Shown piece by piece: positions 14,296 to 18,425 of a DNA stretch of 64,000 nt (its first letter is position 1; each line of letters opens with the position of its first letter). Source of the stretch: Dyella lipolytica (lineage in GTDB: Bacteria; Pseudomonadota; Gammaproteobacteria; Xanthomonadales; Rhodanobacteraceae); NCBI RefSeq assembly GCF_030160075.1, contig NZ_BSNQ01000003.1:1610328-1674327 (forward strand), given 5' to 3'. Both the position numbers and the translations under genes were made by a program. The notes beneath the pieces were generated by a model. It was given only the letters and a program-made list of their open reading frames with translations, was not told where the DNA came from and searched no databases.

Positions 14296-15099
14296 TTGAA
14301 CAACGCATCTAAAGGCAGCCTGGCCTGCGTAGGTATTGGTATCACGCTGGGTTCGCATATCAGCCCCTTGGCGCGCAGTCACATCGAACAGGCCGACGTG
14401 GTTTTTTCCGGGGTATCCGATGGCATCGTCGAACTCTGGCTGAGCGGCATGAATAAGGACGTGCGCAGTCTGCAGCCGTACTACCAGGAGGGAAAATCGC
14501 GGCTCAAGACGTATCGGCAAATGGTGGACGCCATCATGACCGAAGTGCGCGCGGGCAAGCGTGTATGTGGCGCGTTCTACGGCCACCCCGGTGTGTTTGC
14601 CTGGGCGCCGCACAAAGCGATCGAAATGGCCCGGCTCGAAGGTTACGCAGCGCACATGGAGCCTGGCATTTCTGCCGAAGATTGCCTGTATGCCGATCTG
14701 GGTATCGATCCGGGCGCCTATGGCTGCCAGCACTACGAGACTAGCCAGTTCATGTTCTATAGGCGCTGTGTTGATCCAAGCGCATGGCTGATCCTGTGGC
14801 AGGTGGGACTGGCGGGCGATCAATCGAAGAAGCGGTTCGCCACGGGTGCCGCTTATCGGCAGGTGTTGGTGGACGTGCTGCTGCGCGACTATCCGCCGGA
14901 ACATGAAGTGGTTGTCTATCGCGCAGCGACATTGCCGATTCAGTCGCCGCGGATCGAACGGCTGATGCTCGCGAAGCTGCCTCATGCCGACCTGGGAATG
15001 ACGGATACGCTGGCGATTCCGCCCGCCCGTTCCCTACAGCCCGATGTAGAAGTTCGCGCCCGGCTGACGGCGCTTGATCAAGCAATAGCCGACAGCTAA
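14296..15099 (+). CDS. Borosin-type peptide backbone N-methyltransferase (split type, SonM-like)
   Basis: 267 residues of the tetrapyrrole methylase (SAM methyltransferase) fold: GSLACVGIGITLGSHISPLA, DVVFSGVSDGIVELWL, AFYGHPGVFAWAPHKAIEMA, MEPGISAEDCLYADLGIDPG, IQSPRIERLMLAKLP. This order is that of OphMA and SonM, which N-methylate peptide backbones. Residues aligning by eye with OphMA catalytic Tyr63, Arg72, Tyr76 and Tyr98 are Y63, R69 (in SRLKTY), Y73 and Y95 (in FYGHPG). Unlike OphMA there is no fused core peptide, so this is a split type. It starts with TTG after AGGGGAAGG. The probable precursor is at 15344. Other tetrapyrrole methylases are less similar. Confidence 0.88.
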   Translation: MNNASKGSLACVGIGITLGSHISPLARSHIEQADVVFSGVSDGIVELWLSGMNKDVRSLQPYYQEGKSRLKTYRQMVDAIMTEVRAGKRVCGAFYGHPGVFAWAPHKAIEMARLEGYAAHMEPGISAEDCLYADLGIDPGAYGCQHYETSQFMFYRRCVDPSAWLILWQVGLAGDQSKKRFATGAAYRQVLVDVLLRDYPPEHEVVVYRAATLPIQSPRIERLMLAKLPHADLGMTDTLAIPPARSLQPDVEVRARLTALDQAIADS

Positions 15100-15343
15100 C
15101 GGGCACAGGGCTGTTCCATTTCGCTCAGCAAGGCATTAAAACAATTAATATCAATAAGTTATATTCATATAGTCCCTAGTGAATACTAAAAGGACGGTAC
15201 TAAAGGTCCACAACGGCGCTATGTCGCATAGGGATCTTCACGGCGAGATATGATGGAAACTGACCACCACAATTTGCGAAGCGCAAGCCATGGATTGCGC
15301 CAGTGCCATTGCAAACATCAACTAACAGCGGGGGAATGGCTCA
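15100..15343. other. AT-rich leader between the methyltransferase and precursor genes
   Basis: 244 bp with a clearly AT-rich block at 15135-15172 that contrasts with the GC-rich neighbours and probably contains a promoter for the precursor gene. I find no intrinsic terminator after the methyltransferase. A 37-codon frame at 15250-15360 lacks support. The palindrome at 15281-15300 is described separately. Confidence 0.55.
15281..15300. promoter_or_regulatory. 20-bp near-palindrome ahead of the borosin precursor gene
   Basis: GCGCAA-GCCATGGA-TTGCGC: perfect 6-bp arms around a CCATGG centre, 18 of 20 bases symmetric. It ends 43 bp before the precursor ATG and could be a repressor site or an mRNA hairpin. 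Confidence 0.5.
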
Positions 15344-15649
15344 ATGTTGAGCGTTGTTGATTTTCTGGAAAGGATGGGCAGTGACGCGCAATGGCGCAAC
15401 GCTTCCCAGGATGAAGTTGAGATTGCGTTGGCAGAAGCCGAAGTGGAAGCACCATTGCGCGACGCCATATTGGCTAGGGATGCATCCAAACTCGAAGCAT
15501 TACTGCAACAAGGCCCGCTTATTGCCATGTTCGTCCCACCAGATGAAGAAGAGGAAGGAGAGGAAGACGACGAAGACGATTCCGGTGAGAAGCCGCATCC
15601 GCAAGGTGCCCGCGACTCACAGTTCCGTCCATCGCTTCGGCAACCGTAA
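15344..15649 (+). CDS. Probable borosin precursor peptide
   Basis: 101 residues. Residues 4-56 look like a helical borosin-binding leader: VVDFLERMGSDAQW, then LRDAILARDASKLEALLQQ, similar in pattern to the SonA leader (F..LG.DAQ ... A...GD..KL..L). Next comes a hydrophobic candidate core GPLIAMFVPP (57-66), then a strongly acidic run (67-79) and a polar tail. No signal peptide. A GGGGGA ribosome site is about eight bases before the ATG. It follows the methyltransferase by 244 bp, and the GGDEF gene starts 8 bp after its stop. The precursor assignment rests on pattern and context; the exact methylated residues are not known. Confidence 0.75.
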   Translation: MLSVVDFLERMGSDAQWRNASQDEVEIALAEAEVEAPLRDAILARDASKLEALLQQGPLIAMFVPPDEEEEGEEDDEDDSGEKPHPQGARDSQFRPSLRQP

Positions 15650-15657
15650 GCGCATTG

Positions 15658-17454
15658 ATGTTCATGCCCGGCCGCACTCGCCGGAAACTTTTGGCACGCG
15701 CTGCCTCGCTTTTGTGCCTGCTTGCGGGAGTGGCATTTGCCGCCACTCCCGAATCCAGCGATTCGTCGCAGTTGCTCGCACGCGCGGACGCGATCAAGAC
15801 AGTTGACAATACGGCCTTTGCCAAGCTGCTCGAACAGCTCGATAAAAACACAGCAAACCTGTCCGAAGCCCAGAAATGGACGTTGCGCTACCTGCATGCT
15901 TGGGAGCTCGGATACACCGGCCAGTTCGTCAAAGCCAAGCCCGAACTGGAGGTGATCGCCAGGCAAGCCCCAGATAACACGATGCGGATAAATGCCACGG
16001 CATCCCTTATCAACATTCTGGGCTTCGGGCATCACTATGAAGAAGCCTTCGCACAATTGGACCAGGGGCTCGACGAACTACCGCGAGTCAGCGACAAGAA
16101 TGCGCGCTTCCATCTGATGGCCGAAGCCGCGCAGTTGCTGATCGGCGCGGGGCAATATGACCTGGCTACCAGTTACACCGACCAGATAATCGCCGACTAT
16201 CCTGACGGTCGAAACGGCTGCATCGGCAGATACTTGAAGGTCCATGCCAACTTCCTGGATGGCCGCATGCGCGCATCGGATCTCGATGCCCAGCAAGGTC
16301 TTGAAACATGCGTGAAAGCCGGAGAAAACATGTGGACTGACGCCATTCGGCGCGACGTAGCCAATTTTGCGATTCAGCAAGGTAGGATCCCGGAAGCCAT
16401 CCGCCTGCTGCAAAACAGTTACGCGAATGTCGTGGGCTATCACTATCCGGAGCTGACGGCCGAATATGACGCCTTGCTGGCGCAGGCGTACTGGGAAACG
16501 AACGATAGCGCGCACGCCGAGAAGTTCGCGCTGGACACAGTGGATATCGCGAAAAAAGACGACTACACCCAGCCACTAAGCACGGCTTACGAACTTCTCT
16601 TCCAGATCGCAAGGCAACAAGGCGACCTGCGCAACGCGGTGACCTACCGTGAAAAATTCGTGGCCGCCGACAAAGACCATGTCGACGAACTCCGCGAAAA
16701 GGCATTGGCGTACCAGTTCGCTAAACAGCAGGTGGAAATCAAGAAATCTCAGCTCGAAGAGCTGAACAAGAAGAACCAGATCTTGCAGCTGCAACGCGCG
16801 CTCGACCACAAAGCCGTTGAAACAAGCCGGCTCTATATCGCCCTACTGCTGACCGTCCTGGCGTCGATCGGCTTCCTGCTCTATCGCCTCAAGCGCTCAC
16901 AACTGCGCTTCATGCGATTGGCCAGGCGCGATGGCCTGACGGGGATTTTCAATCGGCAGCATTTTGTCGACGAGGCGGAACAAGCGCTGCGCTACACGGC
17001 TAAGTCCATGCGCGGCGCCTGCCTTATTCTCATCGACATGGATCATTTCAAACTGATCAACGATACCCACGGCCACACGGTGGGGGATCAGGTACTCCGC
17101 CGCGCGGTGACCATGTGCCAGCGTTATTTGCGCTCGTGCGACGTGTTCGGTCGCCTGGGTGGTGAAGAATTTGGCATTCTGTTGCCCGAATGCACACCGA
17201 CTCAAGCACTCTATCGTGCCGAGCAGATCCGCGCAGCGATTCATGCAACCACCGAAGACGAACCGCAGGACATCCCGATATCTGCCAGCTTCGGTATCGC
17301 TTCGGCCGATCACTACGGTTACGAACTGCGCAAGCTGCTGATTGCCGCCGATGACGCGCTCTATAGCGCCAAGCGTGAAGGACGCAATCGCGTAGTAATG
17401 AGCGAGACAGACACTGATGCTGTCTCGCCCAGCTCGGAAAGGGCTACGGGATAG
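15658..17454 (+). CDS. Membrane TPR-sensor diguanylate cyclase (GGDEF)
   Basis: About 598 residues: signal peptide (LLARAASLLCLLAGVAFA), a long periplasmic helical TPR-type region (about 40-370, ALAYQFAKQQVEIKKSQ ending as coiled coil), one transmembrane helix (LYIALLLTVLASIGFLLYRL) and a C-terminal GGDEF domain. The signature is GGEEF (about 501-505), preceded by the RxxD inhibitory site (RSCD) at the canonical five-residue distance, so active cyclic-di-GMP synthesis with product feedback is expected. It starts 8 bp after the borosin precursor stop, with a weak ribosome site, so translational coupling is possible. A start at 15664 is an alternative. Confidence 0.9.
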   Translation: MFMPGRTRRKLLARAASLLCLLAGVAFAATPESSDSSQLLARADAIKTVDNTAFAKLLEQLDKNTANLSEAQKWTLRYLHAWELGYTGQFVKAKPELEVIARQAPDNTMRINATASLINILGFGHHYEEAFAQLDQGLDELPRVSDKNARFHLMAEAAQLLIGAGQYDLATSYTDQIIADYPDGRNGCIGRYLKVHANFLDGRMRASDLDAQQGLETCVKAGENMWTDAIRRDVANFAIQQGRIPEAIRLLQNSYANVVGYHYPELTAEYDALLAQAYWETNDSAHAEKFALDTVDIAKKDDYTQPLSTAYELLFQIARQQGDLRNAVTYREKFVAADKDHVDELREKALAYQFAKQQVEIKKSQLEELNKKNQILQLQRALDHKAVETSRLYIALLLTVLASIGFLLYRLKRSQLRFMRLARRDGLTGIFNRQHFVDEAEQALRYTAKSMRGACLILIDMDHFKLINDTHGHTVGDQVLRRAVTMCQRYLRSCDVFGRLGGEEFGILLPECTPTQALYRAEQIRAAIHATTEDEPQDIPISASFGIASADHYGYELRKLLIAADDALYSAKREGRNRVVMSETDTDAVSPSSERATG

Positions 17455-17483
17455 GTTGGCTTCGCTGTCCTCACGCCAACCTA
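17452..17483 (+). terminator. Probable terminator overlapping the GGDEF stop codon
   Basis: TAGGTTGGC (17452-17460) pairs with GCCAACCTA (17475-17483); the left arm includes the TAG stop. A T5 run follows only after 8 more bases, so the strength is uncertain. It lies between convergent genes. Confidence 0.5.
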
Positions 17484-17507
17484 GATCGACGTTTTTCCTG
17501 ACTCCCT

Positions 17508-18425
17508 TTATTTGCTCGCATCCTGCCCTTTGGACAGGTCGATCATCGGAATGGAGCCTGCTCCCACAACCTGCGGCAGAATGCCGTTCCAGTGCTGCAG
17601 ACCGTAGAAGCGCGTGTACTCCGGATTACCCTTCAACGCTTCGCCAACCGTATCGATGGCCTTGGCCTGCGCTTGCGCCTGTAGCACCGTGGCTTGAGCT
17701 TCGCCGTTGGCGCGCTCCACAGCAGCCGTGGCCTCCGCATTGGCAGTAACGGTTTTCTGCTCGCCTTCGTATTTCTTCTGCGCCACCGTGTTTTCCGCCT
17801 GCACGGCAAGATTCTTGGCGCGCACCGCTTCTTCGATGGATTGATCGAACACAGGCGAGTAATGGATACCGACCAGCTGCACGTCGATCACTTCGACGTT
17901 GAACAAGCGGTTCAGCGCATCGCTGATGTCTTTACGCATCTGCGCCGTAATCTGCGCGCGCTGATCAGAAATGGTCAGCGTGTTGTACTGAGCGAATGCA
18001 GCAAGCGCGCGGTCCCTTACCACTGGAAGAATAGTGGCCTCAATGTCCACCGCACCGGCACGGCCCACGTGATACAGAAGATTCATGACGGCCGAACTGG
18101 GAATCTGATAGATCAGACTGACATCGATCGTCACCTTCTGGTTGTCGTTGGTATACACGTCGAGTCCGTTGAGCGTGTAAACCGAACGGCTCGTTTGCAG
18201 ACGATCGACTGTCTCGAAGAAAGGCACCTTGAAGTGCACGCCCGTGGTCAGCGGCGCGACGGTCATCGGTGTACCGCCCATCCAGCGCGTTCCCGCTTCT
18301 TCACTTGGCGACACGACGAAAACACTGCCGAACAGAAAAACGATGATGAGTGCGGCGACAATAAGTCCACCGGTGCCAAATCGACCAAGAAAGGAGCGAG
18401 GATCCCTAGGTGGCAAGCTGAGCAT
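17508..18425 (-). CDS. SPFH/Band 7 (prohibitin-like) membrane protein
   Basis: 305 residues. An N-terminal transmembrane helix (GGLIVAALIIVFLFGSVFVVSPSEEAG) is followed by a prohibitin/HflK-like domain (HFKVPFFETVDRLQTS, DNQKVTIDVSLIYQI, NLLYHVGRAGAV) and a long Ala/Glu-rich coiled coil (EGEQKTVTANAEATAAVERA). The product should be an inner-membrane scaffold facing the periplasm. The ATG at 18425 with GGAGA upstream is preferred over a TTG two codons before. No hflK/hflC or protease gene is next to it; it is apparently monocistronic. Confidence 0.88.
   Translation of the reverse strand: MLSLPPRDPRSFLGRFGTGGLIVAALIIVFLFGSVFVVSPSEEAGTRWMGGTPMTVAPLTTGVHFKVPFFETVDRLQTSRSVYTLNGLDVYTNDNQKVTIDVSLIYQIPSSAVMNLLYHVGRAGAVDIEATILPVVRDRALAAFAQYNTLTISDQRAQITAQMRKDISDALNRLFNVEVIDVQLVGIHYSPVFDQSIEEAVRAKNLAVQAENTVAQKKYEGEQKTVTANAEATAAVERANGEAQATVLQAQAQAKAIDTVGEALKGNPEYTRFYGLQHWNGILPQVVGAGSIPMIDLSKGQDASK

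Follow-up and report, generated by a model that had tools for sequence, protein, structure and literature searches.

A probable split borosin precursor with an acidic tail, paired with a membrane TPR-GGDEF sensor gene in Dyella lipolytica

In a 64,000-nucleotide stretch of the Dyella lipolytica genome (hereafter the window), we found that a 101-residue reading frame very probably encodes the precursor of a split borosin, extended by a tail that is absent from SonA. We are highly confident that its product is a substrate of a borosin methyltransferase. The precursor gene stands directly before a gene for a membrane TPR-GGDEF sensor, and the recurrence of this pair across related bacteria suggests that the modified peptides are signals with receptors of their own. 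Our main reading is that the methylated borosin core is released, binds the TPR domain and alters the c-di-GMP output, and we give this full mechanism a probability of about 0.6. The features of the locus are collected in Table 1.

Table 1. Features of the borosin locus, in window positions
Feature	Position	Strand	Basis
SonM-like alpha-N-methyltransferase, 267 aa, TTG start	14296-15099	+	PF00590 and SonM match
Gap of 244 bp, two weak overlapping promoter-like matches at 15136-15173	15100-15343	+	Scan
Predicted borosin precursor, 101 aa, ATG start	15344-15649	+	ORF coordinates and homologues
Leader, residues 1-55, predicted borosin-binding domain, five predicted helices	15344-15508	+	SonA profile match and AF2
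Candidate core, residues 57-66 (GPLIAMFVPP)	15512-15541	+	Sequence and close-family alignment
Acidic tail, residues 67-79	15542-15580	+	D/E content among precursor relatives
Membrane TPR-GGDEF sensor protein, up to 599 aa from TTG 15655	15655-17454	+	Pfam, homologues beside borosin genes
TPR ligand-sensing region, predicted periplasmic	15742-16812	+	Hydropathy, AF2, invariant cysteines, structural neighbours
Predicted transmembrane helix, residues ~391-411	16825-16887	+	Hydropathy peak within residues 390-413
GGDEF domain with GGEEF from residue 502 and RxxD motif (RSCD)	16924-17391	+	Pfam, motif

The first-pass annotation of the window had proposed this frame as a RiPP substrate next to a methyltransferase gene, and our analysis agrees with it on the main points: the coordinates, the strand and the ATG start hold, the adjoining gene at 14296 encodes a SonM homologue, and the combination of a SonA-like leader with a SonM-like neighbour supports the substrate status. 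The methyltransferase matched PF00590 (E 1.5e-16) and, in the PDB, SonM (7ltc, E 3e-80, 53% identity over 251 aligned residues) and the fungal OphMA (~1e-49). Four SonM active-site residues that are described as binding the core or as affecting catalysis and cofactor binding (PMC8429565) are kept in the window enzyme (Y58, R67, Y71, and Y93 as Y63, R69, Y73, and Y95); I234 is not, and T236 takes its place. Thus, the locus has the SonM/OphMA-homologous alpha-N-methyltransferase with conserved core-binding residues and the separately encoded, adjoining precursor of a split borosin.

Homologues of the precursor are widespread beside such enzymes. In a first set of 30 other loci, a phmmer search with the single query found one in 29, each on the same strand as the methyltransferase; the precursor of the remaining locus (L028) was recovered later with a leader profile built from the phmmer matches. 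The same profile detected a precursor in 76 of 80 named loci, mostly of Rhodanobacteraceae (e.g. Dyella, Rhodanobacter, Luteibacter, and Frateuria), and in 65 of 69 after leaving out the 11 named loci that repeat loci of the first set. It found none in L056, L063, L102, and L107; at L056 and L102 the contig ends just past the methyltransferase.

One could suspect a chance ORF, or an unrelated small acidic protein beside a tetrapyrrole-type methylase, from the fact that the single sequence matched no Pfam or NCBIfam family (in line with the earlier remark that simple inspection leaves it unannotated) and did not find SonA in the PDB. Against the homologues in 29 of 30 and 76 of 80 loci and the profile match to SonA reported below, this explanation has practically no chance of being right. 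The sole PDB match of the single precursor sequence was ninjurin-1 (E 0.05-0.06), which was taken as a chance match.

The leader had been described as helical and SonA-like, and lack of similarity in profile searches had been named as grounds for giving up the idea. A profile of 18 precursors did match SonA in the PDB at E 0.0035, with residues 1-58 aligned on 1-58 ungapped. Since the single sequence missed SonA, the leader evidence rests on this family profile. The AlphaFold2 (AF2) model of the precursor, built on the alignment of these 18, placed five helices in the leader (residues 4-13, 15-19, 22-31, 36-43, and 47-55) with good confidence, and the tail was disordered or of low confidence (whole-model pLDDT 71, pTM 0.45). 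When this model was used in a fold search, SonA chains took ranks 1-5 with TM-scores by target of 0.70-0.73 and weak E-values (0.81-2.4). Sequence profile and predicted structure therefore agree that the leader is a borosin-binding domain; it shows the five-helix form expected for a split borosin, with fold-search E-values of 0.81 and worse.

Past the leader, residues 57-66 read GPLIAMFVPP as proposed, and the order of leader, core ending in proline and acidic tail recurs in relatives. The acidic run claimed for residues 67-79 is acidic throughout except for G72. The first-pass annotation had also held that conservation outside residues 57-66, rather than in the core, would speak against it, and on this point the result formally went the other way: among 13 close relatives, mean pairwise identity was 46.7% for the leader against 23.3% for residues 57-66, with 34.9% for the acidic stretch and 15.2% for the region past it. 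RiPPs usually show a leader that is conserved more than the core. The cores differ in sequence and mostly keep the plan of a hydrophobic residue, then proline, then acidic residues; all 13 rows of the close family have a hydrophobic residue at position 64 and Pro at position 65.

Methylation of SonA falls on residues 63 and 65 (PMC8429565), which in the same register correspond to F63 and P65 of the window precursor. Because the amide of P65 has no hydrogen, the possible N-methylation sites lie within residues 60-64, as far as the sequence indicates. Of the Val, Ile, Ala, Met, and Phe residues suggested earlier, F63 stands in the SonA register, and the range is narrowed to 60-64.

The acidic tail is common, not universal. 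Our census comprised 111 loci, 11 of which were present twice, with 123 precursor hits. Of these hits, 109 were scorable, and 97 of the 109 had at least 25% D/E past the core; counted by distinct tails, this was 86 of 97. The 14 unscored hits, which have no leader motif, included five with Lys-rich and several with Pro-rich tails. Several precursors among L185-L197 have hydrophobic-Pro-acidic ends similar to that of the window precursor, and SonA-type precursors of ~70 residues have no acidic tail. The narrow SonA form of a type IV borosin (~75 residues, ending with the core) does not describe the window precursor, with its 101 aa and 35 residues past the candidate core.

Other tails and fusions were observed among the homologues. 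At L083 (6361-6786) the precursor tail has repeated GGDKDEEEIRxAA-type units, and proline-rich stretches lie past the precursor core at L048, L051, L068, and L082. At five loci (L090, L095, L096, L098, and L105), a GNAT acetyltransferase (Acetyltransf_3, E 4e-19 or better) is located between methyltransferase and precursor in one open frame with the leader, as a fusion or as two genes in frame; instead of an acidic tail, these precursors have a histone H1-like one with much Lys, Ala, and Pro.

Judging by the letters alone, the gap upstream of the precursor gene could hold a separate promoter for precursor and sensor. In 14950-17700, we counted two promoter-like sites versus a shuffle mean of 1.5 (sd 1.3), which is not significant. 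A short inverted repeat, GCTCAATGTTGAGC, spans the precursor start codon (15339-15352); it is one of two terminator-like matches, for which shuffles give 3.0, again not significant.

Directly 3' of the precursor lies a third gene, absent from the first-pass annotation. Three start codons are possible (TTG 15655, ATG 15658, and ATG 15664), and they place its start 5-14 bp past the precursor stop. Its product matched GGDEF (PF00990, E 1.6e-40) and TPR families in Pfam and carries GGEEF, which we take to be the GG(D/E)EF motif of diguanylate cyclases, and RSCD, presumably the RxxD inhibitory-site motif. With a GGDEF domain and this motif, it is a predicted diguanylate cyclase. By hydropathy, the N-terminus (hydrophobic residues ~11-31) is signal-peptide-like. 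AF2 modelled the TPR domain as a confident helical repeat (pLDDT 93.1), and two cysteines of the aligned TPR segment, C160 and C190, do not vary across 53 rows, a pattern compatible with a disulphide formed in the periplasm.

The genome of this Dyella has 17 GGDEF matches, and the two with this sensor region are both beside a borosin methyltransferase and precursor. The second set (L002, G000:C9:1015781-1019560) consists of methyltransferase, precursor, and sensor with a different core region (QSTQTPGHEEE type).

The sensor is also the constant neighbour in relatives. A homologue of its residues 1-410 was present in 76 of the 80 named loci (missing from L056, L102, L103, and L109), and 87 of the 91 precursor hits in these loci share the locus with a sensor. 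For 75 of the 87, the sensor ORF starts at most 60 bp past the precursor or overlaps it, the overlaps being partly due to over-long ORF starts. Ten other window genes were considered as parts of the module and rejected (creatininase, YVTN, Band 7, ferritin/CDGSH, MarR, SDR, MFS, and others): each occurred in at most one of the 80 named loci, although the outermost of them, at a distance of ~5 kb or more from the methyltransferase, lie on the edge of the examined 5-kb flanks or outside them. Neither an exporter nor a peptidase was seen as a conserved neighbour of borosin loci.

We also counted matches across 61 relatives, which gave 65 methyltransferases (excluding a 53-residue remnant, G010:C1) and 86 sensors (including fragments). 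A sensor lay downstream of 57 of the 65 methyltransferases, on the same strand and 411-1293 bp away; 8 of the 65 had none downstream. At the genome level, 37 had both, 2 only the methyltransferase, 1 only the sensor, and 21 neither (Fisher p 4e-13, kinship ignored).

Nineteen of the 86 sensor matches in these 61 relatives had no upstream methyltransferase, and we examined their neighbourhoods. This resulted in 14 loci (L112-L125) with no intact methyltransferase within the 7-9.5 kb examined, plus L126 and L127, where the methyltransferase is elsewhere in the stretch. An intact precursor was found directly upstream of the sensor in 12 of the 14; at L118 the precursor next to the intact sensor is degenerate, and L125 has none. 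Since the precursor is kept before the sensor in these 12 loci, precursor and sensor are a conserved unit.

Seven of the 14 loci (L112-L116, L118, and L119) share flanking genes with the window locus, and for this reason the methyltransferase gene was probably lost in place there. A methyltransferase remnant was detected upstream of the precursor at L119 and, weakly, at L116. A methyltransferase is encoded somewhere in 36 of the 37 precursor-bearing genomes; the one without, G013, has an assembly of 86% completeness. The precursors at methyltransferase-less loci may thus be methylated in trans.

These loci bear on a simpler explanation: an ordinary split borosin pathway whose diffusible product acts outside the cell, the TPR-GGDEF protein sensing something else and regulating only the operon or a production-linked behaviour. 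Substrate and enzyme are indeed as in SonM/SonA. However, such a pathway accounts poorly for a precursor that stays by the sensor in 12 of 14 methyltransferase-less loci and in either gene order, and for the more than one precursor-sensor pair around a single methyltransferase at L043, L089, L218, and L126. Overall, we regard it as unlikely, albeit a serious contender to the main reading, in which the released core binds the sensor.

The pairing extends to other gammaproteobacteria. From two other orders, 57 methyltransferase matches gave 40 stretches, which together with 14 earlier loci made a set of 54; the earlier loci were L127-L129, L131, and L138-L147, with L131 and L147 representing divergent methyltransferases of same-genus genomes. 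Four of the 54 (L127, L138, L144, and L146) had contributed sequences to the profiles applied here. A TPR sensor lay within 5 kb in 45 of the 54 loci, with a GGDEF output in 32 and a histidine kinase in 12 (one locus having both, two neither). The precursor was found in 40 of the 54, and the gap between precursor and sensor was <100 bp in 36 of the 54. The methyltransferase may come before or after the pair; precursor and sensor are still adjacent. At L198, a precursor close to SonA (E 1e-21) is followed after 11 bp by a TPR-GGDEF protein.

The link to the sensor has its limits. Nine of these 54 loci have no sensor (L129, L131, L140-L143, L147, L208, and L214); at L214 a kinase is near the precursor, with no TPR match detected. 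In an even sample of the class, 8 of 369 genomes had a match, and among the six loci outside the family a TPR sensor was present in L138 and L139 and absent from the other four (L140-L143). With only two of these six loci having one, divergent methyltransferases are thus often without a sensor, a point in favour of the ordinary pathway.

In 148 genomes of one other order, an A2-type sensor was within 5 kb of 38 of 53 methyltransferases (15 of 53 without), and 50 of 65 A2-type sensors were near a methyltransferase (15 of 65 with none within 5 kb). Both were present in 28 of these genomes, the methyltransferase only in 8, the A2-type sensor only in 5, and neither in 107. A different arrangement was observed at L220 (5595-8804, genome G557) and in genome G529, where at least three consecutive TPR proteins of ~350-370 aa, without a GGDEF or kinase match, stand beside a borosin methyltransferase.

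Is the peptide the ligand of the sensor? The best matches of the TPR model in a fold search were LGN and Pins complexes, and behind them came Rap-peptide complexes (4gyo, 4i9c, and Phi3T Rap) and NprR. In a profile search of the PDB, a designed repeat protein and a dynein subunit ranked above RapF, which came third (E 4.7e-5). Given how generic the TPR fold is, this likeness shows no more than compatibility with peptide binding.

A co-divergence analysis gave a mixed result. We found 75 methyltransferase-precursor-sensor triplets, kept 65 with the leader motif and at least 70 residues, and retained the 62 with a GGDEF match; they were split into families 1 and 2 by leader motif, and all the permutation p-values given here ignore phylogeny. 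Across the 62, the core distance followed the TPR distance with the methyltransferase removed (partial r 0.46, p 0.002) and did not follow the methyltransferase with the TPR removed (-0.01), and the GGDEF distance added nothing beyond the TPR (0.02).

Core and sensor co-diverge in family 2 but not in the window's own family. Among the 38 triplets of family 2, the core tracked the TPR domain (0.39, p 0.002) more than the methyltransferase (0.16, p 0.02). Among the 24 triplets of family 1, which includes the window, the core tracked the methyltransferase (partial r 0.42, p 0.002), with no such relation to the TPR domain (partial r 0.06, p 0.27), as the ordinary pathway would have it. On balance, we lean modestly towards the N-methylated peptide being the ligand of the TPR-GGDEF sensor.

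For the released-core mechanism, we propose the following course. The five-helix leader would dock on the SonM-like methyltransferase encoded at 14296, which would methylate backbone amides at around residues 60-64, from N to C as far as the conserved proline. A role in keeping the acidic-tailed, unmodified precursor soluble, or in later processing, may fall to the tail. The core would then be released, and its N-methylation would confer protease resistance and perhaps membrane permeability. Lee is said to have described in 2024 that the peptidase shewasin A cuts a borosin precursor.

The released core would have to reach the periplasm with no export signal or exporter seen in the module; by inspection, the precursor has no hydrophobic signal sequence and starts with its helical leader. 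N-methylation can raise membrane permeability (PMC8429565), and therefore an exporter could be unnecessary. Once there, the core would bind the predicted periplasmic TPR domain of the diguanylate cyclase, and the c-di-GMP output would change, whether up or down.

A variant without release is that the methylated precursor stays uncut and acts as a regulatory partner of the sensor, which it contacts from the cytosol through the acidic tail. It fits the lack of a peptidase or exporter as a conserved neighbour, the common acidic tail, and the retention of the precursor where the methyltransferase is absent. However, SonA-type precursors of ~70 aa without an acidic tail pair with the same kind of sensor, and the co-variation with the core in family 2 concerns the TPR domain, whose location appears to be periplasmic. 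We consider this variant improbable and keep release of the core as the preferred reading.

An adjacent and conserved receptor gene gives the precursor a specific, testable role, that of a methylated peptide controlling c-di-GMP or a phosphorelay. If this is true, borosins of this kind would be signals rather than toxins or antibiotics, which would account for precursor and sensor remaining paired at loci that have no enzyme gene, and these loci would provide natural receptor-ligand pairs for N-methylated peptides. Extended to bacterial split borosins in general, the idea would make them ribosomal, backbone-N-methylated signals that reach the periplasm by virtue of methylation instead of a dedicated exporter. 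Each would have a membrane TPR receptor of its own, a diguanylate cyclase or a histidine kinase, through which it would control c-di-GMP or a phosphorelay. We hold this wider generalization tentatively, at slightly less than even odds.

Split borosins, SonM/SonA, and their wide occurrence in bacteria have been published (PMC8429565; PMC11285071; PMC11395268). GGDEF is among the abbreviations that the Figure 1 legend of PMC11395268 spells out for borosin architectures, and therefore the association of borosins with GGDEF proteins is probably known in part. Our literature search, with incomplete coverage, returned no report linking borosins with diguanylate cyclases as signalling partners, and a search for borosins with Dyella, Rhodanobacter or Xanthomonadales had none on borosins among the matches listed. 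Work on periplasmic tetratricopeptide sensors with diguanylate cyclases led to other systems, and the locus tags SO1478-SO1480 led only to PMC8429565.

Among known systems, the closest is SonM/SonA of Shewanella oneidensis, a type IV split borosin (7ltc; PMC8429565). Both systems have separate methyltransferase and precursor genes, a homologous leader, methyltransferases that are 53% identical, and a hydrophobic core after the leader. They differ in that the SonA core (residues 62-71) is at the end of the peptide, whereas the window precursor goes on into an acidic tail, and in that methylation has been demonstrated for SonA (PMC8429565), whereas the window precursor is a predicted substrate. 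The fused borosins OphMA and dbOphMA share a homologous methyltransferase domain (E ~1e-49), but their precursor is fused to the enzyme, and in the window it is separate.

In pairing a TPR receptor with a small peptide gene, the locus is also like the RRNPP systems (Rap-Phr, NprR), a likeness extended by the weak RapF profile match and the structural similarity of the window TPR. RRNPP receptors are cytosolic TPR proteins with a DNA-binding or phosphatase domain, and their peptides are made with a secretion signal. The window receptor, in contrast, is membrane-bound, with a signal-peptide-like N-terminus, a transmembrane helix, and a GGDEF domain; its TPR region is predicted to be periplasmic, and the output of borosin-linked sensors is GGDEF or histidine kinase. 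The product of the window peptide gene is probably a methyltransferase substrate; it has a folded leader and, by inspection, no secretion signal. In our view, what sets this precursor apart from the known kind is that it forms a module with a receptor and that this module survives without a local enzyme gene.
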